DNA from: Actinostola sp. cb2023
Taxonomy: Eukaryota; Cnidaria; Anthozoa; Actiniaria; Actinostolidae
Assembly: GCA_033675265.1 (NCBI GenBank)
Contig: JAUJYZ010000128.1
Coordinates: 62,001-126,000 of the forward strand
Direction: 5' to 3'
DNA: 64,000 nt
Shown: positions 8,906-48,623 of the stretch, one piece after another
How positions within the stretch are numbered: position 1 is the stretch's first letter
Layout: the number at the start of each line of letters is the position of its first letter
The notes under the pieces: generated by a model
Database searches by the model: none
Told to the model about the DNA's origin: nothing
What the model saw: only the letters and a program-made list of their open reading frames with translations
Program-made: the position numbers and the translations under genes

Positions 8906-9013
8906 AAGTATACATTTTCTTAAAGCTGAATAAATGCAGATTCTAAATATGCTGGAGATGATTTCCTATTTTGTAAATATGTTTTGTTATTGCACATTTT
9001 AGAAAATTCGACC

Positions 9014-14803: not shown

Positions 14804-15060
14804 TTCGCTTATATTTAGTTACTAAGTTATAATGCATACGCGACTAATAGTAATAGATTAGTTGTTGTTTTATGGTCCTTGTTTTAGTTAGCCGAACATC
14901 AACATCTCTTGGATTGTGGCGGGAACCGTCGCGACGCGCGTCGCGCCAACGTAAACAAAGTTTGGCGCCAAATGTGGGGACGACGCCGACCTACCATATG
15001 ACGTCATCAAAAGTCGTCGTCGTCGTCAAAAGTCTCGATTCGTAAGCTCCCTATTTCAAA

Positions 15061-16685: not shown

Positions 16686-16889
16686 TGTGAGACATTGCGA
16701 GACATTGTGTGATCACGTGATCACTGAAGCACGTGAAATGCGAGCACGTTTGAGCGAAAGCACACTTGCGAGTGCGAGAGAGAGAGAACGTTGAATTGAG
16801 TAGAACCTGTAGAAAATCATTTGAGTCGAACCATTAAACAAGTTACACGGAGTACGAACCTAATAATCTAGAAGAGGAAAACCCTCACA
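16686..16889 (+). repeat. 5' LTR of the BEL/Pao element
   Basis: 204 bp, TG...CA ends. It contains palindromic GTGATCACGTGATCAC and a GAGAGAGA tract. Confidence 0.95.
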
Positions 16890-16907
16890 TGGTCCTTCGA
16901 GCCGGAT
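16890..16907 (+). promoter_or_regulatory. primer binding site
   Basis: TGGTCCTTCGAGCCGGAT directly follows the 5' LTR. It begins with TGG, complementary to a tRNA 3' CCA end, as expected for minus-strand priming. Confidence 0.85.
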
Positions 16908-16926
16908 ATATTTAGAGATTCAAGTC

Positions 16927-21822: not shown

Positions 21823-22505
21823 TGAAGAGATGCCTGAGAAAGACTCTAGGAAATGCCAGATTGGATTATGAGGAACTTATGACAGTATTGACAGAAGTGG
21901 AAGGTACACTAAACTCAAGGCCGCTTACTCACGTTGAGCCAGACATCAGCGAACAGCCTTTGACACCTTCACACCTTATTACCGGACGACGACTGGCAAC
22001 TTTGCCACACCCAAGCGAAATGCAAGAGGACGATGATCCTACAGCCTTGCAGAGAAGACAGAGATATTTAAATCTACTACTGGAACATTTTTGGAAAAGA
22101 TGGATTGCCGAATACTTGATCAACCTCAGAGACTTTCACAGCCACAGAAGAAAGACCTCAAGAAGCAAACTTGTCGAAGTTGGCGATGTTGTGGTAATTC
22201 ATGATGATAACTTGAGTCGGAGTAAATGGAAGACAGGAGTAGTGGAAGAGTTGATACAAGGAGAAGATGGAGAAGTGAGAGGGGTAAAGGTCAGAACTCT
22301 CACCAATAAAGGAGCGACTACTTATCTGAGGAGACCAGTACAAAGGATTTACCCACTGGAAATCACCCAAGAGAAAGAACCACAGATCACACTCGAGGAA
22401 GAAACCTCCCTAGAGGAAGAAGTTCAAGAACGAAGACCTCAAAGAGCAGCAGCGAACCAAGCAAAAACACTCATTAAGAAACTGATAAGTGACCAAACGG
22501 TGTAA
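21604..22505 (+). CDS. BEL/Pao integrase C-terminal part (shifted frame)
   Basis: This frame continues the integrase after the indel near 21,600. It contains the second catalytic Asp (ITSDNAKTF) and the catalytic Glu (PWWGGFYERMV), then the BEL/Pao-specific C-terminal domain (RPLTHV...PLTPSHLITGRR, VVVIHDDN, LRRPVQRIYPLE). It ends in a stop 20 bp before the 3' LTR. The single frame break separates the first catalytic Asp from the other two, so this copy as written cannot make an active integrase. Whether the break is biological or a read error cannot be told here. Confidence 0.9.
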
Positions 22506-26602: not shown

Positions 26603-27615
26603 CCCATTCGCTCCTGAGCTATTTTGCGTTTTTTAGCGATTTTCTGGACCTAATCACGTCGTAGGAAATTTCGATTCCATATAAGGGGTTTCCATGGAAA
26701 TCTTGGCAGTTCTGAAAGCCCACGGGCTCAGGTTCTGACGTAATCTTTCTCTTGTCGTGAATCTCCGCGAGGAACAGCATCTCGTAGCTACTAGGAGCGG
26801 TCAATTTTGCATTTTTAGAGTGTTTATAGCCATTATTCACCACAGAAGCCCCCAGGACAGCATCATTAAGCTTGACTGGTGTGGTAGAGACCGTTCTCCT
26901 GGAAGAAATCAGGAGTTTAGATACGAATTCACGATCACATTTCGACGTTGCCGTTTGGAAATTCAAAATGGCGGTCTCAATTGTGAAATCGTCTCTCTGG
27001 TCTTTCTGTGTTGGATTCCAGGACCTACAAAGGCATTTTTGGCGACTTTGGACTTGTAAAGAATGCAACCGGTGCAATATTTTGCCTGTAGGACCGAGTG
27101 GCTCAACACTCTATATATTCTTAAAAAACAGAGATTCGGGGAGATCTATGCCGAAATTCCCGGATGTTTCCCGGCATCCTTTTCGGGCGTGCAGAAGGAA
27201 AACACGTGTTAGCGAAAGTGGTCCTAAGGAAATGGCTATTGTTCGGCGAGTTAAGGAAAAGAGAGGGCAAAATTCACGACTATATCAAGAAGAGAGATGG
27301 AAGTTTGCTGAGAAAGTGGCGTTTTGTTTCGCAAGGATGTATTTTGGAAGAAAATCCAAGTCAAATGTCGGTCATTTTCGAGGTGTAAAATTGCGTCAAA
27401 AACACGCATTTTTGATTTTTATGGCAAACAAATTGAACTAATGCCCAGAAATCGGACCTGTAAGTCAGTTTACTTGAGGTTAAAATATGAAGAGTTATCT
27501 AGTTGTCACTAATAACTGGCCATGAGATCGATGTTACGAAAATTCAGAAAGTTAGAATTTTTCAAAGCATTATCGATGGTTACGGCCGGTTTCGGCCGGT
27601 GTAGGAGCGAATGGG
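26603..27615 (+). mobile_element. piggyBac-like non-autonomous element, copy B (complete)
   Basis: Termini CCCATTCGCTCCT and AGGAGCGAATGGG are perfect inverted repeats, flanked by TTAA on both sides (26,599-26,602 and 27,616-27,619). A TTAA target and CCC/GGG ends are the hallmarks of piggyBac-like elements. Length 1013 bp. No transposase is encoded, and the short ORFs are not conserved in frame with copies A and C. Insertion lies at the 5' edge of the surviving family-X copy 1 exons. Confidence 0.85.
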
Positions 27616-29283: not shown

Positions 29284-29497
29284 TTATACACATAAAGGTA
29301 GAGTGATTTCACTAAGAACATGAATAAAGTAACTTTATTCAAATTGAAAATTATTTGTTTTTTTACCGACATGTACATGTATGTAGAAGATGCCAGTTTT
29401 TGACATCACATGACAACCAATAATATATTAATGAATTAAACTAATTTATTATGTTTGCTATAAGTAGCTGATATGATTAATTCAATAAATTGTTTAT

Positions 29498-29738
29498 TCA
29501 ATAATTGGTGACAGTCCATTTACTGATTATTTTCCTCAATTGGGAACAAGAAACCAGATGGAGGTGGTACACCAGCCCTGGGACGGTGATGTTCCTGTCT
29601 AATAGTTCAAATTGGGCCAGACTCTCTCTCTTGTTTCTTCGTACCCTGTGAAGGCGCAATGTATTTCTATTGGCCTGTCCACCTGCACCATCATCACCAT
29701 CATCGCCGTCATCATCATCATCATCATCATCAGGTCTG
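29498..29738 (-). pseudogene. family-X gene, copy 2, last part of last exon
   Basis: Minus-strand coding resumes here after the 10-kb insertion: a run of Asp codons (the GAT repeat at 29,709-29,731), then GGQANRNTLRLHRVRRNKRE, matching copy 1's LRLHRLRVNQRE, and a diverged end. The tail shifts frame relative to copy 1. It is tail-to-tail with HIRAN gene 2, 215 bp away. Confidence 0.6.
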
Positions 29739-30104
29739 TACGGTGGCCGAGAGCGGCAATAAAAAGTGAAAATACAAAAGTCCAAAATCAAAAGTCAAAC
29801 TCGCTGAAGTCAAAATCAAAAACGATAAAAGGCAAACTCACATTGGCTTTTGACCACTTGTCGTGGGTGAATTTTTCTTTATAAAGTTTGCACTCGGTTA
29901 CTTTGAATTGACGCTTCAGCGACTTTGCCTTTTCACCTTAGCGAATTTGACTTGAGTGAGTTTCGCTTCACGCTTTTGCCAGTTTGAATTGAGCGACTTT
30001 CGCTTCAGCGACTTTGCCATTCCAGCTTAGCGAGTTTGACTTGAGTGATTTTGAACCGACAACTTCTGGGCGTTCCTCGCTGCGAAAGAGGGGAGATTGG
30101 TAAC
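29739..30104 (+). repeat. left terminal inverted repeat with internal tandem units
   Basis: The outer ~170 bp are near-identical to the right terminus. The inner part consists of ~80-bp tandem units rich in CGCTTCAGCGACTTTGCC and GAGTTTGACTTGAGTGA. It ends with GGGGAGATTGGTAAC, shared with the right copy. Confidence 0.9.
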
Positions 30105-30195
30105 TAATTAAAATTCCAGCCATTCCATCTCTGTGATACTTCGAGTGTGTAGCAGGTGTAGTGTGGTGTAGTGTTGTTACGTACGTTTCATCTAT

Positions 30196-33100
30196 ATGGC
30201 TCTGGATGCCGAATTTTGGGAGAGCATTCCCTTAATAGAAGATGATATCCCTTCCATTTTTGCAGCAAACAAGGTATTGGAGTTTAAAATTTTAAGCTTA
30301 CTGCATGAAGTACGTTATGAACTAAACTACCTTATTTTGACACAGATAACTAGAATATCACAGTTTATGAGTCTAGAACAACGTGACTTGGACATGATTG
30401 GACTAAGATATCATTCGGATAAACGGCGATTGTTAGGTAAGAGATCGATACACATACATTGTATTCTTCGTTTGCAACCACGTGGTATTTGGCTGTTCTT
30501 AAATTGCGAAATAATACTTTCTTTGCCAAATAAAATAAAATGCTTTAACATGAGCTTGTAGAGCTATCGAAATAACATCTTTGGGGCAAATTTTGGAACA
30601 CAAGAGCATTTCTTTACAGAGCTATGGATGAACGAAGTTTCCATTCCAGTGTGTTTGTATAGCGGCGCCATCCCGGGGGAAGGGGGGGGGGATCCCGGGG
30701 GGAGGGGGAGGGGGGGTTTCTAAAATATAATTCTTAGATAGGGTCCACTTTTTATCGATCTGTCTTGAACAGCGTATGGATTTTCAAGATGCCACTATCT
30801 TTTAGATATAGGGTCGGGATTTACGCACCCCAGCGGGACACCCCATAGGGCCTCTATAGATAACAGCAATTTTTTTTTTTTTTTTTTTTTTTTACATTTT
30901 TTTTTTTTATTGCTGACAGAACTACCGTACCCTGAATTTTAAATAAAGGTTTTCATTCATTCAGACACCCCTATCAAAACCCAGATCATTAGTACCCCCC
31001 AGGGGGCGCCATGAACTTCTAAGCATGTAGCACTAAAAACATTTAAATATTAAAATTTAAATTTAAATTTAAATATTAGCATGTAGCACTAAAAATATTA
31101 AAGTCCTGGACAAGTACATAATAGGTGACTCAAATGAAATTATTAGGCGTCACTTTTGATGAACGTACACTTGAAGTTTAATATTCACATATAGTAGAAA
31201 GGTTGAACGTTTACAAGAGAGAGCACTCAGTGCAATTTACTGTGATAAGAATATAAACATCTCCTTACTAGGGCTAAACTCGATCCCTACACTATCCAAT
31301 CGTAGACTGCAAGAAATTGCAATAATTATATATAAAGTAAAACAACATATTCAACACGAGCAGATAAAATTTGTATCTTCAAGCGAGCATGTAATATTCT
31401 GTTTAGCATATAATATAATTATCGATGAAACATTTTTTTGTTTTTAAATAATTTTTACTATCTTCACACGTACACGTGAAGATACATGTAACATGTTATC
31501 TTCACGTGTGAAGTTATATCAATTTTTCGAAGAAGAGAAATATAGATATTTCATCGATAATTATATACCGTATTAAATATATTTTCACACTCTTAGATAA
31601 ACAACAGAAGCTAGCAGCAAGCGTAATGGGATCAGGAGCAGCACAAAGTGGACCTGGTGGAGGTACATGTACATTTCATCATGCAGTTTATGTGAATCAG
31701 TTGACTCATGATGGAAGCTGTGTATATATACTTCAATGCTTTCAATTTTCTACTGTGAGTCAAAGTTTTTCCATGGAAGAATATTTTCTGTGGATGGTAT
31801 CCATAGCCATCTCCCAGCGGCCTCATCTGATCCCTTTCCTTATATATGCAACCATCATTTCAACCCACATTGACATTCATTGTTTTTCTTCTCAAAAAAG
31901 GAAAGCGTACAGACATTGGAGGACTGGAGAATGGTAAACTTTCCCTTATATTTGTTCCAACACTGAATCCTTTGGTAGGGGAAGTGAGATACCTGGTATT
32001 ACCCCTTAATGCTTCTCCATTCAGTCTGCCCTGCTATGGACACGGTCTGTTTGGGATTGCAAAAAAAAAGCACGAACGATGAACGATTTGCCTATGCAAT
32101 TTGCACCTAAATTTTAATAAATGATTTTAATATATCTATCTAATTTGCATCAATTTTCATAAAGTTTCTGCAATCGTACACCGTTAGAGAAGAATTTGGT
32201 ATTTTTTATTAATAGATTGGATGAACATTGAGAAATGGCATAAGAACAAGCCTCTATTAATGAAATCAAAGAAATCTGCTTTGCCAAAGCAAAAGGTGTT
32301 AAAGGTGGATATTTTGCTGTGAATGTAAACAGACTTTACCTTGTAATGTTATAGAGTACAGAAGTGATGACGTCATAAAAATAAAATATTTCTAGTATTA
32401 CCATCGTTCGCGCAACAAATTAAATGTTCAGTGTTGCAGGTTGCAAAACTTTGTTGCATGAAGTAGAAAGAGCTTCTACTTTGTGCAACAAAGTTTTGCG
32501 ACCTGCAACACGAAAATGTGTTGCACGACAAGTTGCGCGAACGGTGGTAATACGAGAAACATTGCTCTGCAACTTGCAACGCAACAATCTGAACAATGTT
32601 GCACGACAAGTTGCACGATTTTGTTGCTCGTATTACCGCACCTTTAACAACTTTAGATCCCTGATCGTAACGTTATGAACCAATCCAAAATTAGTGATTT
32701 GTGGAGGGAAAGTATAAATTTCACTGGCCATATCTCAGCCGCTATTTAACCGATTGCTGTCAACTTTAGCATGTAAGCTTGATGTTCTTTCAAATTGGGG
32801 ATCGAAAGTTGATAAAGCGAAAAAAAAAAAATTGGCGACATCATTGACTTCAGTACTCTATTTATAATACGACTTTGTTGTTGTTGTTGCTGTAATAAAT
32901 CACATGAAATATATGTCTCCAATTATCTTAGGAATTTCATGTGGCAAAAATGACCTTTTCAAGACAAAAAAATATTCAAGTCGAAAAAGGTCTAATACCA
33001 CTTAAGGTATATATACACAGACTATAAATTATTTGTTGTGTTTAATTTTTATATAATCAGAATGTCTGCATTTTGTATATTTCTCAAATCATTAATAATT

Positions 33101-36100
33101 CATGAAGAGAACACAAAAAGGTGATCTTAAAATTTCCATCAAGTTTGGTGAACGTTTGCTTCAAAATGAATTGATCCAAAAATTGTTAATGATTTGTTTG
33201 AAAGAAATTAAATCAATATTATTTTATCTACAGCATGGACTGAAAAAAAGAAATGTTTTGCAAGCAATTAACACAAACGAAAGTTACCTCACATTCTTGT
33301 CTTTTTAGATATCATGCACCCCCACTTTGACAAATGTTCAATTGGCATGTTACAATGCCTTTAATGAGAAAGAAGAACTCCATATCCCAGAAGGAATTGT
33401 TATTATAATCACCGACAACACAAGAAAGAAGATGATTTCTAAAATTCAAAATGACATGCAGTTGCAAAAGGTCAATATCATTGGATATCTCTGCCAGGTA
33501 AATAACAATGCAGTTTTCTAGTCGGTTGCTCTATATTAACCACTGAGCTACTTGCCCTTGCTCACCATAGAGTGCCATAGAGTGCCACCATAGTAACCAG
33601 TAGTGTGGTTAGCATAAAGCATCCAACTAGAAAACTGAGGTCAATTTTTTTCTGAGTCCTTAAATCACAAATGTGAGGTTTGGTTATTAAATAACTTGAA
33701 TTCACATTTATTATAATTGCATACGTATATATATCACATCTCATAATTTAAAATTTTAATTTTAATTGTCTACCTCACAATGTACTGTACATGTTGTACA
33801 GGATTTAAAGCTTAATGCTGAATGTACTTGTCAAACCTTTATATATTTTCTTATGAACATTCAATGTAGGTTAAAGCAAAAGAACAATCTTATAGTAACG
33901 ATACATGGGAATCTATAAACAAGTCATCAGAAAGTTCTGACCATTCAAGACAATCCCTGGAATTTGCTGGCTATTCCGCAAGAGCACCCCAGAAAATACC
34001 TTCTGCTTCCATCCCTTCTAATGCTTCCAATGCCAAACCTGATGTGCAGATTGTTACGAAAAACCGTCTATGGGACAAGGCGTGTTTTTATGACCATGCC
34101 CGTTACCATCCAGATAACATTACAATTACAGCACCTGCAAAATTGCAAGTGCACACGGACTTCAAAAAAAAAAGATGAGGATATTGCCTTTAAAAAAACA
34201 GGTACATGTACATATCGTCTGGATTTGTGTTGATGGACACGTATGTAAATATTATATGAAACAGTCTCAATAGAATAATAAATTAAACAAAAACAGAAAA
34301 TCATGAGCTAGAATATAAAGTGCCTGCTTATATATATACGGTAATTAACATGAGTTCACTATGTACAGGTTTCCGCTGTATCTAAAATTCTTCCTTTGTG
34401 CAGATTTGTCCACAGTTAACATTGATGAAGATGAAATAGAATTAAAAGATATGATCGGAAAGGGAACATTTGGAAAGGTTTACAAAGGGCTGTGGAAAGG
34501 GATGCAAGTAGCGATTAAAGAGATTCCCAAAGGGTATGGCGACCCTGATCTATCTGAAATAGAAATTTGCAGGCAAGTTTCATGACTGTTTTCTTAATTA
34601 CTGATCCTCTTATAGTTCTTTGATTTCACTTGTTTGCATGTACACCTATTCCAAAAATCTTTGTCCCCGCCGAAAGCAACAAGCATGAAGCTGACGACCG
34701 CAAAGGGCATTGGGACTTTCTCCTTATTCATTTATTCATCCATAGACATTTTAACAACCTGTATGCATTTTCAAATGGCCGAATAGTTCCAAATGATCAA
34801 TGAATGATTGCTATTCAACGCTCGTAGGGATAACTTCTCAAGTACCACGGATACATTAATTAATTAGGAGATTCCCAAAGTCCTTTGCGGTCGTCAGCTT
34901 GTTGCTTTCGGACCTGACAACGATATTTGGAATAGGTGTACACTATATTATTTTGTCCTTTCATCTACTCATGCTTATCATTCTTTTGTTAATATCAGGA
35001 GATTAAAACACCCTAACGTGATAATGTTAATTGGCTGGGTGGTGACAGACACAGATGTCCTGGTTGTAATGAATTATGTTAAAGGAACCAATTTGGCATA
35101 TGCAATTGGGCTAACCAAAAGCAAAAGATCTATTGAGGTAAGTACATGTAATAGAAAAACATGCCCACAATCCATTGTCACTAGTAAGAATCGGGCCCAT
35201 ATCCCAACCTAAGTTGCTGAGCAGAGTTGACCTTCACCAGGGTGTCACCAGGGTAAATTGGGTACCATATTTTGCTTTTTCACCATAAAATAAAATATTC
35301 GATTTTTAATTTGGGTACACCTTTTTCTGTTTTGACTAAAAAATCCGCTTAGCGTAACAGCCAGCGTATGCACTTCTGATATTAGCGATTTCCAAAGGAA
35401 TACTATTAACTTTTTCCTTAAATTGGGTCTATATTTCAGTTACAAATCCTTGGAAAGGGTATGAATTTTCCAATTTTTCATCCTAAAATAGGGTCAGGGT
35501 TTTGACATCCCGGGGGCACACCCCTATCCTAAATTTCCGGTAGTACTCTAACATATTTGTTTAATAAGCACCTTCGAATAATTGCAATATCACAATAAAC
35601 TCATTCCTTACAGCCCAACTTAACCTTTACAAACCAAAATTTGTTTTTTTCTTATGGATTTTATTTCTTCATCACAACATTTGCAGATCCTAGATGCCAA
35701 ATACAATGGCTTTGTGATGTATAACACTGCACAAGGCATGGTGTATCTACACGCAAAGCACATCATCCATCAAGACCTGAAGCCAGGCAATATTCTAGTA
35801 TGTACAGTGTATTGTATTGTTTTCTGCTATTAATTTACATACTTTATTGTCATTCCTTTGGTTCTCAGTTTGACAATTTTCTTTTATAATCAATCTTCTC
35901 AATTTCATTAATAATTCATGAAGAGAACACAAAGAAAATCACCACCATGACCAAAGGTTTGGAAAAGTGATCTTAATTTCGAAATATTTGTAAACTTTTG
36001 CTTTGAAGTTCTCCAAGAATTCTTAATGAATTTTTGTTTCTCATGTTTTATCAAATATCCAAACACTTTGAATTCAGTCAAACCCACTTCTCATGTTCCC

Positions 36101-36601
36101 ACTTCTCATGTTTGGATATCTGCCAAAACACTTTTTCTCATTTGATGTATTATGTCCTAATAAATATTGATGTACATGTAGGTGGAAGACCTGACTAAGA
36201 AGGCAATCATTTGCGATTTTGGCATTAGTAAACTGAGAGAGAACGCCACCATGGCAACTACAGTGTCGGATAAGTGTAATGGTGGTACCCTTGCCTACCA
36301 GCACATTGAGCAGCTGCAAGGCAAAGTGCTAACGTATACAGTTGATGTATATGCCTTTGCCGTTGTAATGGCTGAAGTCCACTCACGAAAAAGAGCATGG
36401 GATGGGAAAGGTGCTACTGAGGTCAGGAATTCCATTTTGGACGGAAAGTACCCTCAGTTTCCAGACATCACAGGGCCATGTGCAGCACTAATTGATAGGT
36501 GCTTTCAACAGCCTTCTGACAGGCCCTCGTTTTCAGAAATGCTGCCCAAATACAAGAATTATGTGAGGTGGACATTTGGTAATTTTTACAACTACATGTA
36601 A
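30196..36601 (+). CDS. transposon-borne protein kinase (TKL-like), multi-exon
   Basis: Exon 1 is 30,196-30,436 (MALDAEFWESIPLIEDD..., donor GTAAGA) and exon 2 is 31,597-31,662. Middle exons include 33,309-33,497 and ~33,870-34,200 (the latter shifts frame in an A10 run near 34,170). Kinase exons are 34,404-34,572, 34,999-35,137, 35,687-35,797 and 36,182-36,601. The domain shows the Gly loop (IGKGTFGKVYKG), VAIK lysine, an alpha-C Glu (LSEIEICR), HQDLKPGN (Arg of the HRD motif is Gln), DFGISK and a degenerate APE region (LAYQHIEQL). It ends at a stop at 36,601. The first kinase intron uses a GC donor (AG|GCAAGT). The ~200 N-terminal residues match nothing I know. Exons between 31,662 and 33,309 are uncertain. 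Role: Ser/Thr phosphorylation, target unknown. Confidence 0.75.
30655..31030. mobile_element. foldback with G/C-run ends
   Basis: Starts GGCGCCATCCCGGGGG and ends CCCCCCAGGGGGCGCC. It contains a long T-run and the words ATAGGGTC and GGTCGGGAT. It is similar in style to 13,208-13,639. Located in kinase intron 1. Confidence 0.45.
31405..31570. mobile_element. MITE with ATTATCGATGAAA ends
   Basis: ATAATTATCGATGAAAC at the left pairs with TTTCATCGATAATTATAT at the right. The centre holds two mirrored copies of ATCTTCACACGT/ACGTGTGAAG. In kinase intron 1. Confidence 0.6.
32393..32640. mobile_element. foldback built of TTGCAACA words
   Basis: TATTACCATCGTTCGCGCAA (32,396 on) is mirrored at 32,531-32,552. 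An inner stem pairs TTGCAAAACTTTGTTGCA with TGCAACAAAGTTTTGCGA. A partial third repeat ends in TTGTTGCTCGTATTACCGC. Non-coding, in a kinase intron. Confidence 0.55.
33512..33650. repeat. two tRNA-like heads in opposite orientation
   Basis: On the minus strand AGTAGCTCAGTGGTTAATAT followed by AGAGC forms a complete tRNA-type D-arm with a box A. On the plus strand a related segment (GTGTGGTTAGCATAAAGC...) runs outward the other way, and both end in ACTAGAAAACTG. It looks like a pair of SINE heads. No complete tRNA cloverleaf was found. Confidence 0.4.
34640..34941. mobile_element. MITE in the GC-AG intron of the kinase
   Basis: Left GTACACCTATTCCAAA... and GCTGACGACCGCAAAGG are mirrored at the right (CCTTTGCGGTCGTCAGC...TTTGGAATAGGTGTAC). 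Arms ~85 bp. Confidence 0.65.
35215..35545. mobile_element. foldback-like element with CCCGGG end
   Basis: Contains ACCAGGGTAAATTGGGTACC on the left and CATCCCGGGGGCACACCCC on the right, with ATAGGGTCAGGG words. Decayed relative of the G/C-run foldbacks. In a kinase intron. Confidence 0.35.
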
Positions 36602-36668
36602 CATCCATATCATCAATCTTAAGAAAGTTGACATCTAAGTGAAAAATCATTGACCAGTTCAAAGTCAG

Positions 36669-36960
36669 TTAATAACCATTATCGTTGAAGTGCGATCTTC
36701 AAAACAACTTGTCAGGTTTGAATATAGTCGGCCGCCAATCAAACAACATGGCATATCCAGCATTTAGCCAATCATAGCAAAGCTAAATTTGATTGCTGGT
36801 TGTCCAGCTTGTCAGGTTTGACAATAGCTGGATGTCAATCAAACAACATGTCCATAACTATTCATAGCAAAGCTAATTTGATTAATGGCTGTCTAGACTG
36901 GAGATTGTCTGAAAGCGTTGTAGTTTTCAGGGTCACACTTCTACGATAATGGTTGTCATT
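36669..36960. mobile_element. MITE with internal 100-bp tandem repeat
   Basis: TAATAACCATTATCGTTGAA at the left mirrors CTACGATAATGGTTGTCATT at the right. Inside, CTTGTCAGGTTTGA...CAATCAAACAACATG occurs twice, 100 bp apart. Confidence 0.55.
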
Positions 36961-37232
36961 AGACGTACAACTTTTTGGCATAGTTTTTTTTTATAGCTGA
37001 GTCTTACATTGGCTGAAAAAAAGCAACTAGTTCCTTGTATATATTGGAGGCATTATTTTGGCAAATATGAAGTTGAGCTGAGTTCATATATGATTCTGCT
37101 TCATTTATAAACGATTCAGGAAGATACTCTAAGTTTTGCTGAAACTTGAATTTCTCTGACAAGAAGTGGACATCATCATCTTGTGTAAGTTTGCCCATGT
37201 GTTTTCCACCTACAGTTAACCAAAACAAAACA

Positions 37233-37388
37233 ATTAACACTTATTTACTGGCACTGGGGGAAACAGTGTTATATGTTTTGTGGTCCCAAAACCACTGATG
37301 TTTCCATGGGTGTAGGCCAAGGAGAACTTCAAGGACACGGGACCACAAAACATACTGCTTTCTCAAGGTCCCAGTAAATAAGTGTTTT
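37233..37388. mobile_element. MITE with AACACTTATTTACTG ends
   Basis: AACACTTATTTACTGG... is mirrored by ...CCAGTAAATAAGTGTT, and inner ATGTTTTGTGGTCCC pairs with GGGACCACAAAACAT. Lies between exons of the integrase-like gene. Confidence 0.7.
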
Positions 37389-38277
37389 ATCATATACCAA
37401 GTGTCAAAGAACACAAAACAAGAGAGGACATACATGTAATAAAAGTTTTAATTTTTCAACTTTCATATACAAATAGGGCAAACTTGCACCCGGTGTTAGT
37501 AATTTCCAGTTTTGTTATTACCAGTCCACAACATTTTGTTGTCCGCTCAGAGCTGTTGCCAGGTAACAGTTGCCAGGAAACAGTCAAACTCTCACATGAT
37601 TCCATTTAATGAAAGTTGTACATGTACATTAAGGTGCATTTAAGAGACCTGTAGTCTGGTTTACATATTGAATATTATAAGTTATCATGTTACAGTTTTA
37701 TTGTGAGAGTTCACATTTGTAATACAATTCAGTTTAAAATGTGCTGGCATGTTACTACATGTACATGACTTTTCTTAATAATTAATAGAATTGCCACCAA
37801 TATGGTCGATTTTAGGTACATGTACTACAATGATCTTCTCAAGCATTATCATTAAAGAACAAAACACACAAAGGGAATAATACAGTATACAATGGTGTAA
37901 AAGGTGCATTGGAGTTATGTTACATTTACAAGACTTTAAATTTGTGCCCACACACCTTCTATTTCAGGGAATTCATATAGTTCATCTGGAATCCCACTGG
38001 GCCGATCTCTTCCTTTTTGCTTCCTAATCCTGTGTGAATTCCAATCTTGTTTCACATCTTCTGACTCGATCTGCAACAATGGCATGTACACGAACAGCAT
38101 ACATAGTCTAAAAAGATACAAAATAAAGACAAGTTTGTTTTCAAAAATGTTCCATTAGTTAACATTTTCCAATGTTTTGAGCAACCCCAACACATGAACT
38201 AGTACTATATTGTATCTCACTTACCGGTGGACAGTGTTGCCAGGATCCCAAAAGCCTTCCCATGTCAGTTTCTAAAA

Positions 38278-39240
38278 ATATTAATAATTACTGTTAGTAA
38301 TAAAGATAATGATGAAGAATAAATAAACAGATAATAAAACATTATATGGGCCCTCAGTAAATTGTTGTATGGCCGACAATAAATTATCATCAGCAGTGTA
38401 ATTATGTACATTTTTTTGTACATTTGATGCCAGTCAGTTCATGTAGTGTACATTATTAATGTAATGGGTTTTGAAAAGCCTTGTTGGAAAACCTAATAAA
38501 GTATGTATGTATGTAGGCCCCGGTTGCATGAAACTCGGGTGAATAGCGCTATCCACCGGATAGGTTCAACTGTATACATGTACATGTACATGTAGGAAAC
38601 AAAACTTCAAGACAAGTAATGATAACACTTTGAAATAATTATATGTTGAACACAATAAGCAGCTGTCCGTAGTCATATTAAAATAAAGACAATGACAAAA
38701 GACAAAGTGGAATAAATTACTGTTCAGCATTTGAGTCTCCATAATGGTGAACTAGAGTTCAAATTGGAGGAGCAACCCAGGGCTATGTACATGTATACGG
38801 GGACATTTCCACTAGAAAAAAAAATGCATGGTTTTTGACCTCTCACTATATTTTTATGTGAGTCTGTCCTAAACAGGGTATATATGGTAATGCATGATTG
38901 TTGTTGTTACTAGTACATCTGATTTTATCTGAATTTAGCAATCCAAGACAAATTTTACAATTGCCAAATAATAATTGTCCTTTAGAAACAGGGTCCTAAA
39001 ATAAAGGATGTTGTCACCCAACCACCACCACCACACCACAAACTCCCCCCCCCCCCCCCCCCCCCAAACTACTAACTACTCCGCCAAGGACAGGGGGATG
39101 CAACGACTCGGTAATATAGAACCAGTCCAAATGCAGAAAAGTAAGAAAAATGCAGGAGTCCAAAGGGCCGCAACTACCATAATGAACTTTAATGACTAGT
39201 ACTATATGATTAGTTTAACTAACTCTAATTCACTACTTAC
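38278..39240. other. non-coding stretch where the transposase core is expected
   Basis: Contains a retroposon-like tail (TAATAAAGTATGTATGTATG near 38,500), a CTATCCACCGGATA word near 38,555 and a ~20-base C-run at 39,046-39,065. No coding exon was recognised. Confidence 0.4.
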
Positions 39241-39526
39241 CACCAAGAAATGTTACAGTCTTTCTTCAGGTGCTTTAAAATTATCGTTGGACTTTTGTTG
39301 AGCTGTACAAGATGCTCAACCAATAACTTAACTCGTTCATGTTCTGTGTGTTGTAAACAATAAAAAAATCAACATGTTTACTTGTAAATCAATAGAGAAA
39401 GAAGTATTTTGTAATACATTACCTTCAGCATCTTTTATTTGTGGTTCTCTCCACATATTTTGTTCGGGAAACTGACCAAAATGGCCATGAAATAATAACC
39501 GCTGACCACTAGACGCGAAGTCATCG

Positions 39527-39948
39527 GTTACCAATCTCCCCTCTTTCGCAGCGAGGAACGCCCAGAAGTTGTCGGTTCAAAAGCGTAAAGTGAAACTCAC
39601 TCAAGTCAAACTCGCTAAGCTGAAATGGCAAAGTCGCTGAAGCGAAAGTCGCTCAATTCAAACTGGCAAAATGAAGCGAAACTCACTCAAGTCAAACTCG
39701 CTAAGCTGAAATGGCAAAGTCGCTGAAGCGAAAGTCGCTCAATTCAAACTGGCAAAAGCGTGAAGCGAAACTCACTCAATTCAAAGTAGCCGAGTGCAAA
39801 CTTTATAAAGAAAAATTCACCCACGACAAGTGGTCAAAAGCCAATGTGAGTTTGCCTTTTATCGTTTTTGATTTTGACTTCAGCGAGTTTGACTTTTGAT
39901 TTTGGACTTTTGCATTTTCACTTTTTATTGCCGCTCTCGGCCACCGTA
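39527..39948 (-). repeat. right terminal inverted repeat with internal tandem units
   Basis: Reverse-complement partner of 29,739-30,104. It is longer because one ~85-bp unit (around GCTAAGCTGAAATGGCAAAG) is present twice. The open frame across it is a by-product of the repeat, not a gene. Confidence 0.9.
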
Positions 39949-41660
39949 GGTCTGACATCAAAGTTATCAAGTGGATCTTCTCTGTAGCGCTCATTGGCTG
40001 TCCAATAATAAAATGGTAGGTTGGCATTGAGGCGTTTTAGAAAACTCTCTGAAACAAAATATATATCAACTGTGACGGCAAATACAATTAATCCATAATA
40101 CAATTAATATCTGTGCCAACAAATTAAAAAACATTCTCAACAAATGTCTCCCAGCTTGCACTACTGACCAATAAGCTTTGGGTATTGCAATATAAGCAAT
40201 GAATGTTCAGACTGCCAATATACAGTACTTACAAAGTAAGTACATATTTCATCCTACATGTATGCCATAAATAAAAGTTACTTTGATATACCGGTATGTA
40301 CAGTATGTGGTTCTAATTGTGAACACTGTTCAGTTAATGTGTACCCTGGTTACCAGATGCTATTATTTTATCTCTCTCGAGTCGTGGGCGCTCTCGTAGA
40401 GTTTAGAAAGAGATAAAATGATAGCCTCTGGTACCCAGTGTTCACAATTAGAACCGTTCACAATCTTCAGCCTTTGACCAATTTCTTCTTGGACCCTTTA
40501 AAAGTTTGCCAGGAGATCTTCCAATACGAAATGTGCGTTGAATAATTGCTCTAAATGAAGAAGTCCTACTTGCACTTGGGTCAGATGAAGATGGAGAGCC
40601 AACCACCTGCGTATACGTGTACATGATTTAATAATTAAATTGTACCATATAAACTTACGTGTCAACTTATATCTATATATGTGGCAAATATATTTATTAA
40701 AACAAAAATAAATAGACAAAATAAAAGATTAAAATGATAATCAAAGACTCACTTGTATAGCTTCTGGATCTCTCTGTTGAAATGCAAGAGATCTCCGAGA
40801 CGATTCTCGCTCAGCTGCTGGCTTGTTCTTTTTCCTGTCGTGGGGAGTGATTCCTGTAGGTTTATGACAGCGTTTTGTGTCTTTCACGGGAGTAATCGTG
40901 GTGTTTCTAAAAAATAGAAAATAGAAAGAACACATTATTAATGTTCAGGAGCTTCTAAGACAATAATATCAGTCAATATATATGTATGCAGGGCGCTATT
41001 ATATCGCCCTGATGTATGTGTACGAACGAAGCCATATGAGATTTGTTATTGTTTAAGAGTCGCCCGACCGTAAAAAGGCAATATTCATGTCTTTTGTTCA
41101 GGGCTTAAACAAGGATTTTTGCAAATGACTGTATTTGTATTATTATACATGTAGTTATTGGAGGGCCACAGGGTTATCAGTTTATACAAACTGTCACATG
41201 CTACCCTCATTATATAAAGTCTATTCAAAATAAAGTATATCCAACTTACCAACTACATGCAGCCCTCGCTCAACCATTTTTTCTTTCAACTCTTTATTTA
41301 AATCCCTCACAAACTGATCTTTAATGGTACGGTATGGAATGTAACGGACAGGCAAGGCATAAGGTTTTCTGTTTCTCTTCTCATCCGATATCATAGTCAC
41401 TAAAACATGTGTGGCAGGACTTCTCTTCTTCTTGAATATATTTCTAAGGTACTTCATGGTATCTGGGTGAATATTGAAAAGGCACACTCCAACAACTTGC
41501 ATATTAGGTGTTGCAGAGGGCCCCAGATGACTCATTGAGTTCTTCATATTCAGAACTCAGATGTTGGTTTTGCTCAAGAAGAGTCTGATATTCTATGACA
41601 TCCCAATTTAGGTTTTTGAGTGTATCTTCAGAGGTTCCATTCTTATTAAGCTTTTCATGG
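39949..41660 (-). pseudogene. family-X gene, copy 2, upstream exons
   Basis: Minus-strand pieces: ~41,660-41,256 (WDVIEYQTLLEQNQHL..., shifting frame near 41,515 into MQVVGVCLFNIHPDTMKYLR...NRKPYALPVRYIPYRTIKDQ, donor GTAAGT); 40,748-40,905 (TKRCHKPTGITPHDRKK, donor GTGAGT); ~40,460-40,612 (VVGSPSSSDPSASRTS...); 40,055-39,949 (ESFLKRLNANLPFYYWTANE...DNFDVRP), where the 10-kb transposon interrupts. RKPYALPV..IPY and LPFYYWT.NER belong to the same protein family as copy 1. The central exons seen in copy 1 (DHNH, ALTGK, DDLETFF) were not found, so this copy has lost its middle. Order and membership of the Ser-rich exons are uncertain. Confidence 0.5.
40307..40463. mobile_element. foldback (hairpin) element
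   Basis: GGTTCTAATTGTGAACACTG mirrors CAGTGTTCACAATTAGAACC. Inner GCTATTATTTTATCTCT pairs with AGAGATAAAATGATAGC. It lies at the end of a family-X copy 2 exon. Confidence 0.7.
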
Positions 41661-43912
41661 AAAGTCTATATACAAAAATAGTCCACAAACTTCTAAGCAG
41701 TACTGTATTCCATTATGTAGTTCAGTAAGATGCTTTTGATGAAGCGTGCTGATCGTCCGAACCTTTGAACCACCCCAGGAGAAGGGCCTGCTTTATATTC
41801 ACATGATACAATGTTTTCAAATTATAACAACCAGGGTACAAAGTTCCTCTATATTATGCTCGCACAAAGAAATAATGGGAAGCCTTCCACACTAATGGCT
41901 TTCTTATTTCCACACTAATGGCTTTCTTCTTTCATATTTCAAGTTGATCTAAATTAAGGTAGATATGTATGTATCCTTTGATCTGGCAGTATTGTGTTAA
42001 TTTGATGATAGCAAAAGAAAAACAATATTGACAAACTGGGAGAGGGAGGCTAAAGAATAAAATGGCTTTATTTCTGATTATAACCAATAATTGCTGGATT
42101 TTCAAGACTGTCCAATAAATAAAATTTTAAAATCAGTTAATATGAATAAATGGTTATTAACCTGTAAAATATATTGTGCAAAATACTTTATCTGAAAAAG
42201 AAAAATCATACACAGGTAATGGACAATAAAATCATGCAAGCTGTTTATCAGCTGAACTTTTCACATTTCAAAAAATATTTTGTTTGTGCACAGTCATGGT
42301 TGGACTAATAAATTGGTTGGGACGTGGACACGTGGTGTACTATAATGTAAAGGGACTTTCTGTCCTTTTACAGCTATTTCAAAAAACGTTGATACTGAAT
42401 ATTATTATATTGTTGGGGTGCAAATTTTATTATTATCTTGTACTTGTACGTTTTAGGGTTTTCTTATTATTATTATTAGTATAGTGAGTATTGTATGTCT
42501 TGTATATATCTTTTTACGCAATTCAGCCTTTTGGCTGCAAAGTTTTAAGTTTAATAAACTATCTATCTCTTTCACTTCGGACTGCAGACCGCGGTGACAC
42601 TTAGTTTTATATCTTATGGTTAACTGTACATTGGATATATAAGTTAATGGGAGGGCTGTACTTATGTGTACTACCCTTTGCAGTTATAAGGTAATTAAAT
42701 GATCGTCGACTGTGGGCCGCGGTGACATTAGTTCAAGGTAGCTTCGGAATTGCGGGGTATTCTGAACTTTAGCCATGTCTTTTGCTGCACATGCTACAAT
42801 TGATCATTTTTTAACAAAAAAGGTTGGTTGAATACTAATTATTGCTAAATACAAGTTCTAATTGTACAATATTGTTTGATTTTTAATTTGATCTTACCGA
42901 GCCATGGCTCTTTTCTAAGTGAAGCATGTCCTCAAGTATTTTATAGCATCAATGCAGGACGCACAGCTAGATGTGTCACTGCAGTACACTGCATCATTGT
43001 ATACAGCTATTTCAAAAAATGTTCAAAACTGAATACTGTATACTGAATAGTGTATTCCAAGACCGAACAGCATTGTGGGTCTCGTTATTTTGAAATAAAA
43101 GGTAAATATACAGCGATTTGCTTGCTATATACATTCTCTACATACAATCTCTACAATTATTCACAAGATCACAGCTTGGGCTGCCTGTGCTTTACCTTGT
43201 GATCTATGAATTGAATTGTGCTCACAATTCTCGATATTTTAAAAGAATGTTTACTGTGAGGTGAATGACGATCTGATACGATCATTAAGCTTATTTACCG
43301 GCATGTGTGCTTGGATTCAGACGCGATGCTGTTGTTTTGTGCTTTTGCCGTTGGAAAATACATTATCGGAACATTTTACGCTAGAGTCCCGTGTGCTATT
43401 AGACCACTTCACGATGTTAATCAGGGCAAAATTATTACGAATATATGCAATCTTGAAGAAGCTTCACGTCATACAGCTACATGTAGTAAGACGATAAAGG
43501 CCGCAAAAAGTTTAAATCGAACTCTTGAAATCATAATCCTACAGTTGTATCTATAAACAACATTCATTCACGTCTTTCCCACCAGCTTTTTACGGCATTA
43601 TCAGTTCTAAAATCTAGGTTCATTAGCGCGCACGTAAGAATGTTATGTTTGAGACACTTGATTGACACATGGTGTGTTAGCACGTGAAACAAGTCTACGG
43701 AAACGAGGGCATGAAACAACCTTACATACAAACACTGTAAGACTACTGAATCGCTATGGTACTAGTACTGTAAAAGGTTGAGAGATCTTTCGAACTTTCA
43801 GTGTTATTTAGCCCTGTAGCGAATAAAGTTCTCGCAATTTGCAAAGCCGGATCGAGCTAGATTTCAAAGGCTGTTTTCTTGTTGTATATCAATCGATCGC
43901 GTGCATCATGTT
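41661..43912. other. intergenic; possible LINE tail, otherwise empty
   Basis: No supported gene. Near 42,525-42,570 TTCAGCCTTTTGGCTGCAAA and AATAAACTATCTATC look like a LINE 3' end with an ATCT tail. A GACCGCGGTGACA / GGCCGCGGTGACA pair occurs at ~42,587 and ~42,714. Short ORFs elsewhere lack recognisable domains. Confidence 0.35.
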
Positions 43913-43916
43913 TTAA

Positions 43917-45230
43917 CTGGCCGTCTCTTTAAAATCCTCTCAGTCGTTTTCGCTTCTAAAATAAATATCTCCCAAACTCTAGCTAATGAAAGACTATATC
44001 AAGGTTAAAACTAAAACGGGTTTGGTTTGCTTCAAAATATTTTTATTTTATTTTATTTTATTTTTTGAAATGATTCCGTCTGAGAGCTGGTCAAGAGGTC
44101 AAATTTGCATGAAATTATGCACTTCTTTACGGCGCTGTACAAACTTCGTCTCGCATTATCCAGCGAAACTTTTTATATCATGTTGTAGATAAATGTATCT
44201 AGTTTGTCTAGAGATAAAGCGTTATTAATCGGTTTAGCCGTTTATGAGAAAATTAGTTGATAATTAACCCCACTAAGATCTAACTGAACGGCGGCTCAAA
44301 ATTACCCAACTTTTTACTCGATTATTTTGCAAAAGTGGCACATCGCTGGACTCTCTCATTGACACAATCGGATTGAACATCATTTCATTTACACAAATCT
44401 GTAAAAACCTGTGTACGTTTTGGATATTTCAAAAGTTACGACAATTTCAGTTGGTGCATGTTAGACGATTTACGAATATTAATTGGGTACAATATCTCAG
44501 ATATCTTATCCATATGAAGTTGAAAACAGCTTACCTCCTTCCTAAATCGCTCATGTTTCCCATTTTACCCATGCTAGACTTCATTCCAGGTCAACATTTC
44601 CAAATACAGCGATTTAGGAAGGAGGTAAGCTATTTTCAACTTCATATGGATAAGATATTGCACCTAATTAATATTCGTAAATCGTCTAACACCAACTGAA
44701 ATTGTCGTAACTTTTGAAATATCCAAAACGTACACAGGTTTTTACAGATTTGTGTAAAATGAAATGATGTTCAATCCGATTGTGTCAATGAGAGAGTCCA
44801 GCGATGTGCCACTTTTGCAAAATAATCGAGTAAAAAGTTGGGTAATTTTGAGCCGCCGTTCAGTTAGATCTTAGTGGGGTTAATTATCAACTAATTTTCT
44901 CATAAACGGCTAAACCGATTAATAACGCTTTATCTCTAGACAAACTAGATACATTTATCTACAACATGATATAAAAAGTTTCGCTGGATAATGCGAGACG
45001 AAGTTTGTACAGCGCCGTAAAGAAGTGCATAATTTCATGCAAATTTGACCTCTTGACCAGCTCTCAGACGGAATCATTTCAAAAAATAAAATAAAATAAA
45101 ATAAAAATATTTTGAAGCAAACCAAACCCGTTTTAGTTTTAACCTTGATATAGTCTTTCATTAGCTAGAGTTTGGGAGATATTTATTTTAGAAGCGAAAA
45201 CGCGACTGAGGTTTTTAGAGAGACGGCCAG
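43917..45230. mobile_element. TTAA-flanked foldback transposon, 1.3 kb
   Basis: Two near-identical arms (43,917-44,551 and 44,608-45,230) in inverted orientation, with a 56-bp spacer. They start CTGGCCGTCTCT and are flanked by TTAA (43,913-43,916 and 45,231-45,234). TTAA suggests mobilisation by a piggyBac or Kolobok transposase. No gene: the identical small ORFs in the two arms are mirror images. Confidence 0.85.
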
Positions 45231-45644
45231 TTAATACGGCGAACGCTAAACGTCAGATTGACGTTTGAGTTTCGCTTTCAGAATCGAACGTCACTAAACC
45301 GGAAAAACTTCTATATTTCAAAGATCGTAAAACAAAACTCTTCCATATTTCAAAGATTATAAAATGATTATAAACAATGAAGTCAGTTCGCTTCTAAAAC
45401 TTTACTTCAAACATCGTCTAGCGGGCTTTATATTTCTAGCAATAAACACATGAAATACGATCTATAATTCTTAAAGGAGAACTGAAGGTAAAAAATGATC
45501 TTTTGTAGAGAAATCTTAAACAATTGCCTTATATCACTATGACATCACATCAAAACAATCTATTGTTTAAACGCTAAGGATCATGGTCGCTAGAGGGGGA
45601 CAAAACAGCAACAACACAAAGGATTTTCCAAATAAATGTATTTT

Positions 45645-45810
45645 ACAGACCGTCTGAAAGCGATAAAAGTCACCAAACACAGTAAATATTGTGGGAAAAG
45701 TATCGATGAACATAATATCTGGAAACTAGCCAATTTGAAATCAAGCGAACCTCAGCAGAGCAGATTTAGTTCAAATTTCTATTGTTCTTCACGATTCTGT
45801 CCCCATCATA
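45645..45810 (+). other. short coding-like stretch, unassigned
   Basis: After TTTTACAG at ~45,648 a frame reads RLKAIKVTKHSKYCGKSIDE...SSRFCPHHK then stop. It could be a terminal exon or a remnant; no family is recognised. Its ~94-bp centre (45,686-45,780) recurs inverted inside the Kolobok transposase. Confidence 0.25.
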
Positions 45811-46046
45811 AATAAGCCGTTACGTCATAATGGTATAGGGCAATTGAGAAACGCTTTATCGCAGTTTTTTTCATCATTTCTTAAATACTTTGAGATACAA
45901 AAATACTTGAAATCAATAATTTTGCGTTTTGTACGGCGGCTCAGAAATGCCTGCCAGCGGATTTCTTTAGTGTCTTGTGACGTCACCGCCGGGGAAGCGT
46001 TCGTGTCTGCCACTGTCAGTGACAAACAGCAAATGTCAAGGAGAAA

Positions 46047-48623
46047 ATGGTATACTGCGTGGCTTTTGGCTGTAAAAATGATTCCAGAAAAAACAAAGAA
46101 TATAGCTATTATCGTTTTCCTAAGGATTCCAACCTTAGAGATGTCTGGCTGGCAAAAATATCTCGTGAAAACGTCCCTGATGTGAACAGCAAAGACACTG
46201 TGTTGTGCTCTGAGCACTTCGAGTCACGTTGTTTCGAGCGAGATTTGAAAGCCGAACTTCTCGGTTTAAAGGCAAAAAGAATCCTGAAAAGCGATGCTGT
46301 ATCTTCGATATTTGTTCATCGTTCTCCTCCTTCAAAGCGTCGACGAGTAACTTCAGAGAAGCGCCAACTGGCAAAGGAAAAGCAAGAGGTAAGATAAGTT
46401 GAAAATGACACTTGCTTCGGATCGTGATTGTTGTCATGTGCTCTCCCTTCGTTTTACCCGAGTTTAGGACACTCTGCTCGTAATCAATGCGATTTTAAAA
46501 GGCATTTTGAAATACCATAACATGATGATCGTTGTAGATAATTTGTTTGTGATTTCTTATTTCAGTATTTGTCTTCTGTCTTCAAAAGTACTGAGAGTGA
46601 AACATGTTCAAGGTCGTCTAACGAACCAACTCCAACTCCAATTTCAAGTATATCTACAACTTGTGAAACTTCTTCGTCTGATCCTGTACATGACGAAACT
46701 ACGTCGACCACCAGTGACACGCAGTTTGACTCAATCCCTACATGTATAGTAGTATCCACTGAAAAGTATAAGTGTCAAGCCATCCAAGCAACTGTGGACC
46801 TTGAAAACAAATATTGCCAAGTGAATACACTAGGAGATAGACTGTTGAGAAAGACAGTGTCAACTCAAACTCCCAATTCCTACAGAGAAATAGGTATTCA
46901 AACTGATTTAAGCTTACTAACAGAAGAGGATGATGATGAAAATATTAGCTCCTCTCAAGAAACTGCATATCCAAGTGATACACAGTTTTTGTCACCACAG
47001 AAAGACCGACTACGTTCTCTTCTGTCAGAGGGAACATCTCATACTGATTCGTGCACATATGACGAACACGATGAACAAGTTATAATGCAACCACAAGAAG
47101 ATATGAAGTATATTGTTTTTGAACAAAAGTTAAATGAACTTCTTGAAAGATGCCCTCAGTGTGGTTCTCCTGTAATTGAAAAGCAAAAGGACACAAAAGC
47201 AACTCTGTTAATTATAACTTTGTCATGTATCAATCACCATAGCTACATATGGCAAGTCAACCCATGTTAAACAGAATGGCTGCTGGAAATCTGCTGTTAC
47301 CTGCATAATTTTGCTTAGTGGTGCCACTTACACCAAAATTGCTACAGTTGCTGATATTTTGAATCTCCAATTTCTCAGTGAAAAGACATTCTGTGACATC
47401 CAGAATGAATATTTATTTCCTGTCATCAATGACTTTTGGAAAGCAGAACAGGAGTCTGTCTTTAGTGATGTAGGCGAGAGAAGACTGTGGCTCTCTGGTG
47501 ATGGTCGCTGTGACAGCCCAGGCTTCAGTGCAAAGTATGGCACCTACACCATGCTTGATCAGCATAATGACAAGGTAGTGGACTTCCATGTTATTCATGT
47601 TGGAGAAGTAAACAGCAGCAATGCAATGGAGAGAGAAGGATTCAAAAGATGCATGGAAGTCATCGCTGAAAGAAGAGTCGATGTGGAAGTAATTGCCACA
47701 GATGGCCATATTGGCATTGCAGCAGACATAAAGAAGGACTATCCACAAGTGGATCACCAACTAGATGTCTGGCATCTTGCAAAACGTGTGAAAAGTAAGT
47801 TGACAGAGAAGGCAAAAAAGAAAGACTGTTCTGAGCTTTTCCCCTGGATCAAGTCTGTCTCCAACCATTTGTGGTGGTGTTCTCAGACCTGTGACAATAA
47901 TCCAGACCTGTTAGTAGAAAAATGGATTTCCATTATACATCATGCAGCCAATTCCCATTCGTGGGATTCTGCTGAAATTTACCACCAGTGCGCGCACCCT
48001 CCAATACCTGATGATGCTGCAAGACGAAAGAGGTGGCTCAAGTGTGAATCAGAGGCCCACAAGGCTTTGGTTAAAGTTGTTTTTGATAAAACTCTGCTAA
48101 GGAACATTAGAAAGCTCACCAAGTCATGCCACACTGGGAGTCTCGAGGTCTACCACAGTGTCCAGACCAGCTACGTACCAAAACGCCAGCACTTCTCTTA
48201 TAAAGAAATTTGAACTAAATCTGCTCTGCTGAGGTTCGCTTGATTTCAAATTGGCTAGTTTCCAGATATTATGTTCATCGATACTTTTCCCACAATATGG
48301 TTGCACGCACACAGTTAGCTGCTCTCCATCACAATGCAAATGTTGGGAGACAACAAGCTGTATCAGCAACAGGTGAGCCAAGATACAAGATCACCTTTCC
48401 TAAGATGACAAAAGAATGGGTAGCAAAACCAATCTATGAAAAGACCACCAAAGACCACCTGAAGCCTATCCTGAATGCAATTGTTGAAAGAAAGCAGCAG
48501 AAAAAGGAAGACAGAAGTGAAGGAATCGATGACAGCAATATATCACAAAACATTGCTATAGTACCTAGACCTCGAAGGGAAGAAGTAATTGCTAGGCGTA
48601 CATCAAGGTTTGCACAGGTCTAA
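46047..48623 (+). pseudogene. Kolobok transposase with THAP domain, disrupted
   Basis: Exon 1 (46,047-46,388) encodes a THAP zinc finger: MVYCVAFGCKND..., a central Trp, CSEHF and a basic tail. Donor is GTAAG. Exon 2 (from ~46,566) has a Ser/Thr/acidic linker, a Cys pair (CPQCGSPV) and the Kolobok catalytic region: RRLWLSGDGRCDSPGFSAKY (first Asp), EVIATDGHIGI (second Asp), VDHQLDVWHLAK, then HPPIPDDAARRKRWL and YVPKRQHFSYK, ending MVARTQLAALHHNANVGR. Lesions: one-base shifts near 47,250 and 47,305, and a ~94-bp insertion at 48,205-48,298 that brings a stop. The enzyme would cut at TTAA. As written it is not functional. Confidence 0.8.
48205..48298 (-). repeat. inverted copy of 45,686-45,780 inside the transposase
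   Basis: Essentially identical, in reverse orientation, to the segment 2.5 kb upstream in the same element. It falls between the codons for HFSYK and MVARTQ and interrupts the frame. Confidence 0.85.

Follow-up and report, generated by a model that had tools for sequence, protein, structure and literature searches.

The stretch analysed here (the window) comprises 64,000 nucleotides of the actiniarian Actinostola sp. cb2023 and corresponds to positions 62001-126000 of contig C999 (G000:C999) in the searched genome, a 424-Mb assembly of 1594 contigs. It contains a DNA transposon of 10.2 kb at positions 29739-39948, in which a multi-exon protein kinase gene faces the remnants of a transposase gene. 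The element is bounded by inverted ends starting with TACGGTGGCC and flanked by a 6-bp target-site duplication, GGTCTG, on the left (29733-29738) and right (39949-39954). The left terminal inverted repeat (TIR) spans 366 bp (29739-30104, + strand), starts with TACGGTGGCCGAGAGCGGCAAT and contains internal repeats, and the right TIR spans 422 bp (39527-39948, - strand). The outer 173 bp of the two arms are 99% complementary, and the difference between the arms is mainly an additional stretch of the internal repeat. Re-reading of the sequence bore out the termini, arm lengths and duplication given in an initial annotation made from the DNA alone, and a chance origin is ruled out by related ends and kinase exons that recur at other sites of the genome.

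The kinase gene runs from 30196 to 36601 on the + strand. The gene model has 12 exons, in line with the earlier estimate of at least eight, and 11 introns, ten of them GT-AG and one GC-AG. Upstream of the kinase domain lie exon 1 (30196-30273, with the ATG at 30196 and a matching exon in the related element on contig C424), exon 2 (30346-30436), exon 3 (31597-31662), the 33-base exon 4 (31901-31933), for which no counterpart was identified in the second family of elements represented by C424, exon 5 (32216-32295), exon 6 (32932-33006), exon 7 (33309-33497), through which the N-terminal half finds its genomic relatives, and the little conserved exon 8 (33870-34201), which in the window contig ends in a homopolymer frameshift. 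The protein kinase domain encoded by exons 9-12 is complete (Pfam Pkinase, 4.5e-43). Exon 9 (34404-34572) carries the glycine loop, the VAIK lysine and the GC splice donor, exon 10 (34999-35137) continues the domain, exon 11 (35687-35797) contains the catalytic loop HQDLKPGN, and exon 12 (36182-36601) contributes the DFG motif, the C-lobe and the stop codon. On C814, another contig of this locus, exon 8 has no frameshift and the 12 exons join into one open frame of 593 residues; the break in the window is thus allelic or an assembly error.

The domain (PF00069/PF07714) has the catalytic lysine, HxD and DFG of a TKL or classical kinase. Its nearest matches in the PDB are TKL kinases, with plant CTR1, TAK1, RAF and RIPK1 among them; the top match is an EGFR tandem, the single domains of which score lower than the TKL kinases. 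The alignment shows that the catalytic lysine, the HxD aspartate and DFG are retained in both the family of the window element (family 1) and the second family (family 2). Compared to TKL kinases, both families have, by eye, HQD instead of HRD, and GTLAYQH in the APE region, where they have no APE motif. No alpha-kinase model (PF02816) matches the window kinase at E up to 10, and the N-terminal half has no significant Pfam domain. A SAM-like match in this half (E 0.035) fails the cut-off and is not claimed. Searched against a protein database, the whole kinase gene retrieved generic kinases, mostly from plants, at 26-38% identity among the best 120 of 1199 matches, and none of the 803 candidates scored for the first 303 residues. 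A kinase orthologue outside the source genome was not found in the protein databases, which may be explained by the limits of the search.

Facing the kinase gene on the - strand are three rva_4-type remnants matched by the C424 transposase (tblastn), so that the degenerate integrase-like gene of the initial annotation is real, albeit without its catalytic core. They comprise the last exon (37016-37216, residues 324-390 of the C424 transposase, E 4e-10), the penultimate exon (37951-38115, residues 273-327, E 2e-19) and an N-terminal exon (39243-39332, residues 13-42, E 0.006). The N-terminal remnant is weak on its own; its order and strand agree with C424. The exons of the DDE triad (T3-T8 of C424) were not matched anywhere in the window element with the C424 transposase as tblastn query, which indicates that the window copy is non-autonomous.

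Contig C814 shares the flanks and the duplication of the window element and is near-identical over window positions 29373 to 47199. The left arm of the contig repeats the right arm in inverted orientation, flanks included, with many insertions and at ~81-94% identity (C814:1-47474), as expected of an unpolished palindromic read. The two apparent full copies on C814 were accordingly rejected as evidence of conservation, since they form an assembly palindrome of the window locus; this palindrome duplicates the window element and would mislead copy counts. It also raises the question whether the element as a whole is an assembly artefact, with ends and interior not joined in the genome or with copies that are duplicated contigs. 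C814 is indeed an artefact for the purpose of copy counting. However, the elements on C424, C89, C1343 and C735 share the architecture, each with its own flanks and repeats, and an artefact is therefore extremely improbable.

By its ends, its duplication and the kind of its transposase, the window element fits the IS3EU superfamily. IS3EU/GingerRoot elements have TA..TA termini, usually 6-bp duplications and an integrase-like DDE transposase, according to the main text of PMC10045372, in which the word kinase is absent; the accessible text of PMC12730594 gives TAYGG..CCRTA ends and a 6-bp duplication for fungal IS3EU. The window element has TACGG..CCGTA and the relative on C1567 has TACGG; the relative on C735 has TACGA and thus agrees only with TA..TA. 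Duplications of 6 bp flank all three (GGTCTG in the window, GTTGTA in C735 and CTATTC in C1567), whereas family 2 departs with 7-bp repeats in the three of three copies examined. A DDE transposase is present in the relatives C424, C735 and C242, its core being absent from the window copy. It has no HHCC zinc motif before the core, as visual inspection of the C424 transposase shows only one Cys ahead of its first catalytic D. Ginger1 and Ginger2 elements leave a 4-bp target-site duplication, and membership in these groups was rejected on the 6-bp duplication of the window element. Polinton/Maverick elements are 15-20 kb long and carry DNA polymerase and capsid genes; the window element is 10.2 kb, and no polymerase or capsid frame was noticed by eye in its list of open reading frames (ORFs), no profile search having been made.

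A protein database search with the transposase yielded 79 relatives among 138 candidates, the named ones coming from corals, an anemone, molluscs, a nemertean and a ctenophore. The closest named relatives are from Actinia tenebrosa (70% identity over 39% of the query) and Acropora muricata (65% over 51%). The named relatives are animal proteins with PF24764 and without an IS3EU label, and no kinase domain stands among the precomputed domains of the 79. No relatives were confirmed in viral contigs. Among GTDB contigs, three short ones binned as a Cycloclasticus symbiont of a sponge carry transposase relatives and are probably sponge DNA in a bacterial bin; no kinase was noticed in their ORF lists.

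The initial annotation had proposed to ask whether the kinase recurs between the same termini, and within family 1 it does so in part. The terminal 173 bp have 15 matches in the genome. Most of the kinase gene recurs in C332, whereas C427 is an internally deleted copy and C636 and C952 have one end each, with no more similarity within the 18 kb fetched of each. The independent family-1 loci with most of the kinase gene are only two, the window and C332. They differ at 3 of 1362 exon and 9 of 4120 intron positions; an early count had hinted at a deficit in exons, which a recount over the same span did not show (Fisher p = 1).

Family 2 was reached through both halves of the kinase. Exon 7 of the N-terminal half finds open relatives in C424, C1343, C89, C1263 and C587 and one with a single stop in C62, and the kinase-domain search matched C424, C1343, C89 and C587 with the same exon order as in the window. 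The element on C424 (345544-357122, 11.6 kb) has arms of ~600 bp that are 88% alike and start with TACGGCGGCCGAGAGC. It encodes an open kinase of 596 residues over 11 exons, and an open transposase of 392 residues over 11 exons with D140, D199 and E240 (D-58-D-40-E), the concatenated pieces of which match rva_4 at 1.5e-25. C424, C89 and C1343 are three insertions with different flanks and 7-bp repeats TCCTGGG, GAGAAAG and CAGCAGC, respectively. The repeat abuts both ends only in C89; three extra bases lie between repeat and element in C424, and the right end is altered in C1343. Over the kinase region and gaps apart, identity to C424 is 99.7-99.9% for each of C89, C1343 and C587, with differences at 0-5 of 1791 exon and 4-13 of ~3860 intron positions.

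The TIR of family 2 has 165 matches in the genome. Among the matches listed, seven pairs of ends lie ~1.0-3.8 kb apart (C870, C681, C1540 twice, C1416, C875 and C520); by their coordinates, these pairs span less than the 5.7 kb of the C424 kinase gene and contain no kinase match. In C294 (33606-49149), two family-2 ends stand 15.5 kb apart, with no match in either kinase search.

Comparison of the two families revealed counterparts in C424 for 11 of the 12 window kinase exons, and at the DNA level the two families match in exons, in the ends and in a C-rich run. The kinase domains of the window and C424 are 56% identical in amino acids, with proportions of non-synonymous (pN) and synonymous (pS) differences of 0.28 and 0.82, the synonymous sites being saturated. 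Similarly, exons 1-7 are 51% identical, with pN 0.33 and pS 0.80.

A more distant relative with the same layout lies on C735 (17938-26939). This 9.0-kb element, the first 24 bases of which are identical at both ends, is flanked by the duplication GTTGTA. Its kinase frame runs for 772 codons and its transposase frame for 425 codons, both without interruption; in the latter, the first ATG lies so far inside that a start in another exon is possible. Full-length open kinase frames (772 residues) occur in C217 and C973 as well as in C735. By eye, the C735 kinase has HRD, and DMG instead of DFG. C242 has the same layout of kinase and transposase as C735, and the transposases of both match rva_4 (1.3e-36 for C735 and 3.7e-31 for C242). 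The kinase domains of C735 and C242 are 52% identical (pN 0.345, pS 0.78) and their transposases 46% identical (pN 0.40, pS 0.87); by this measure, the kinase domain is as constrained as the transposase.

The association was then counted over the genome with a set of 105 transposase loci (105 of 903 candidates scored) and a set of 65 kinase loci, kept from 95 matches after dropping 30, which were exon matches on eight family-1 and family-2 contigs and a second stretch of C446. Seven of the 65 kinase loci have a transposase at most 10 kb away, in each case convergent, where 0.35 were expected. Three of them have a spacing of ~1.1 kb and the other four of ~2.4 kb; the seven thus look like copies of two families and not like independent cases. 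With the C735 kinase protein as query, 35 loci were found (56 match rows merged), 11 of which adjoin a transposase within 10 kb, again all convergent, against an expected 0.17; in four of the 11 (C803, C1053, C1519 and C1567), the N-terminal, non-kinase part alone was matched. The genome also has 47 alpha-kinase matches, not one of them as near as 10 kb to any of the 105 transposase loci listed.

The layout could also be predicted. Six of the 24 loci without a listed transposase neighbour were sampled, and 4 kb was fetched on the side where a convergent transposase was expected. It was present, in the predicted orientation, at five of the six (C121, C1433, C1574, C1135 and C951); at C78, no transposase was found in the 4 kb fetched. 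Two of the five, C121 and C1433, are family copies whose transposases share 77-97% with that of C242, and they therefore add little; greater divergence is seen in C1574, C1135 and C951, the transposase of C951 being in broken pieces. The two kinds of kinase are only 25% identical, yet they occupy a common convergent position. In the kinase tree, the window with C424 and C735 with C242 form separate pairs, the common node of which holds 7 of 52 tips, and the tree does not settle between one and several putative acquisitions of the kinase.

In a further lineage the partner appears to be of another kind. C1567 holds a 9.6-kb element (89978-99616) with ends TACGGAGCCCCCTAAGGGAC, of the IS3EU type (TACGGAGCCC..), and the duplication CTATTC. 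Opposite its transposase lie two frames: one of 428 codons, similar in its N-terminal part to the N-terminal part of the C735 kinase (31% over 139 residues; 5e-15, the E for one single comparison), and one of 335 codons with a HECT domain (PF00632, 5e-10). The two frames are probably exons of one gene. The element on C1567 thus resembles the kinase elements in its IS3EU-type ends, 6-bp duplication and convergent partner, and differs from them in having a HECT domain instead of a kinase.

On the evidence of sequence, this is an animal IS3EU lineage with a TKL-type kinase as a long-kept second gene. We consider it probable that the window element belongs to a kinase-carrying, two-gene IS3EU-type transposon that has retained its kinase through selection on the element, to which the kinase is of use; that distant relatives hold a kinase in the same place suggests that the kinase serves the element itself. 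We propose that the window element is a non-autonomous, core-deleted copy of a cut-and-paste transposon, the full form of which, as seen in C424 and C735, reads the transposase inward from one end and the kinase inward from the other. An intact IS3EU transposase would bind the inverted ends, excise the element and insert it elsewhere, leaving the 6-bp duplication that is seen; for the window copy, it would be supplied in trans. The kinase, the retention of which by selection on the element is supported between families, might phosphorylate the transposase or else a host factor that acts in repair, the cell cycle or silencing, and new insertions would then be likelier to be completed or to escape control. 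The suggestion of the initial annotation that a conserved kinase helps the element finds support between families: the second family shares kinase and exon order with the first, in more diverged ones a kinase stands in the matching convergent position, and pS is far above pN. Within families there is too little change to judge.

Several observations weigh against this proposal. The differences within families 1 and 2 are too few for constraint to be shown there, and exon 8 is hardly conserved between the window and C424 (33% identity, pN 0.50, pS 0.65). The window copy is unable to make a full transposase; C332 is truncated at its left end, broken in exon 10 and devoid of the last kinase exon. 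Only a minority of the kinase frames are intact. Those of C89, C1343 and C587, three of the four family-2 copies, are broken by 1-7 exon gap columns, small indels that are possibly assembly errors, and C735-type kinase frames with stops or breaks occur in C1506, C196, C330 and C1234. Moreover, 94 of the 105 transposase loci lack such a partner at distances up to 10 kb, and a kinase is thus not needed by all IS3EU lineages of the genome. The co-occurrence probabilities overstate the case, because family copies are not independent and the C735 query was picked beside a transposase. Finally, the fungal IS3EU with an alpha-kinase (PMC12730594, accessible text) provide a precedent for a kinase in this superfamily.

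Part of this evidence would fit an accidental capture, in which a host kinase was picked up and hitch-hikes without use to the element. TKL-like kinases are abundant in the genome, most transposase loci lack a kinase, several copies have broken kinase frames, and the seven short family-2 copies, judged from their end coordinates, apparently move without a kinase. However, synonymous differences are far in excess of non-synonymous ones across two deep splits, two very different kinds of kinase (25% identity) stand in the same convergent position, and five of six transposase predictions came true, so that we regard capture as unlikely.

Alternatively, the kinase might chiefly benefit the host, in defence or in a domesticated role, with the transposon as its vehicle only. 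The C814 version of the window locus, which has an intact kinase without a transposase core, would agree with this. By contrast, the near-identical family-2 copies fit a recent spread of the element and not a fixed host gene, and the family-1 and family-2 kinase genes lie inside or beside elements among the matches scored (the three old relatives C446, C322 and C62 left out). That the host is the chief beneficiary is thus very unlikely. The initial annotation had named two findings that would speak against the kinase being part of the element, namely copies with the same termini that lack it and its occurrence elsewhere as an ordinary host gene. Short two-ended copies without a kinase match do exist; among those same scored matches, no ordinary host gene was seen.

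A sub-case that overlaps with selection on the element is counter-defence, in which the kinase or the HECT ligase would oppose host control of transposons outside the transposition reaction. In rust fungi, the TET+ IS3EU elements have a TET/JBP gene between oppositely oriented transposase and alpha-kinase genes, and the author takes the role of the TET/JBP genes of fungal IS3EU to be the countering of silencing (PMC12730594, accessible text). This provides a parallel, and the HECT frame of the other lineage represents an enzyme likewise able to act on host proteins. However, sequence alone does not separate counter-defence from action on the transposase, and we put it forward only tentatively, as a possibility somewhat short of even.

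Compared to the rust-fungus elements, as far as the accessible text of PMC12730594 describes them, the elements found here are alike in the ends, the 6-bp duplication and the position of the kinase opposite the transposase. They differ in their enzymes: an alpha-kinase and TET/JBP in the fungal elements, a classical kinase of the TKL type in the present ones. No TET gene was noticed in the latter, no search aimed at TET having been made. The initial remark that a DNA transposon of this size with a full kinase gene was not known to be described therefore holds in part: a fungal IS3EU with an alpha-kinase is published in that source, whereas the kinase here is of another family, and no animal case of an IS3EU with a kinase, a transposon-encoded kinase or a HECT transposon was noted among the open-licence papers listed in the literature searches. 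It is an evenly balanced possibility that, in several animal IS3EU lineages, the second component has since ancient times been a convergent signalling enzyme, with its catalytic part repeatedly replaced or recruited, as two TKL-type kinds and a HECT domain here and an alpha-kinase in fungi would suggest.

If this reading is true, these transposons bring their own post-translational-modification enzyme, which would control the transposase or host factors. We know of no post-translational-modification layer of this kind in eukaryotic DNA transposons. What looked like a single captured gene would then be one that recurs, under selection, within a superfamily of animal transposons. The open pair of kinase and transposase in C424 allows a direct test of whether the kinase phosphorylates its own transposase or host proteins. 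In addition, some gene models annotated as TKL kinase or HECT ligase in such animals may be transposon genes.

The remainder of the window contains other repeated and mobile sequences. The long frames at 16867-22505, with a gag/pol-like protein, we take to be a BEL/Pao retroelement, and the frames at 13724-14818 and 57681-58801 are presumably PIF/Harbinger-type transposases; that at 62846-63628 we take to resemble ISXO2-type transposases. Two similar frames on the minus strand, at 8999-9523 and 26619-27110, start with SVEPLGPTGKILHRLHSLQVQ and represent a repeated element. An array of 12.8 copies of a 21-bp unit, GAATTATCGCGCGATAACAAC, occupies positions 53576-53838.

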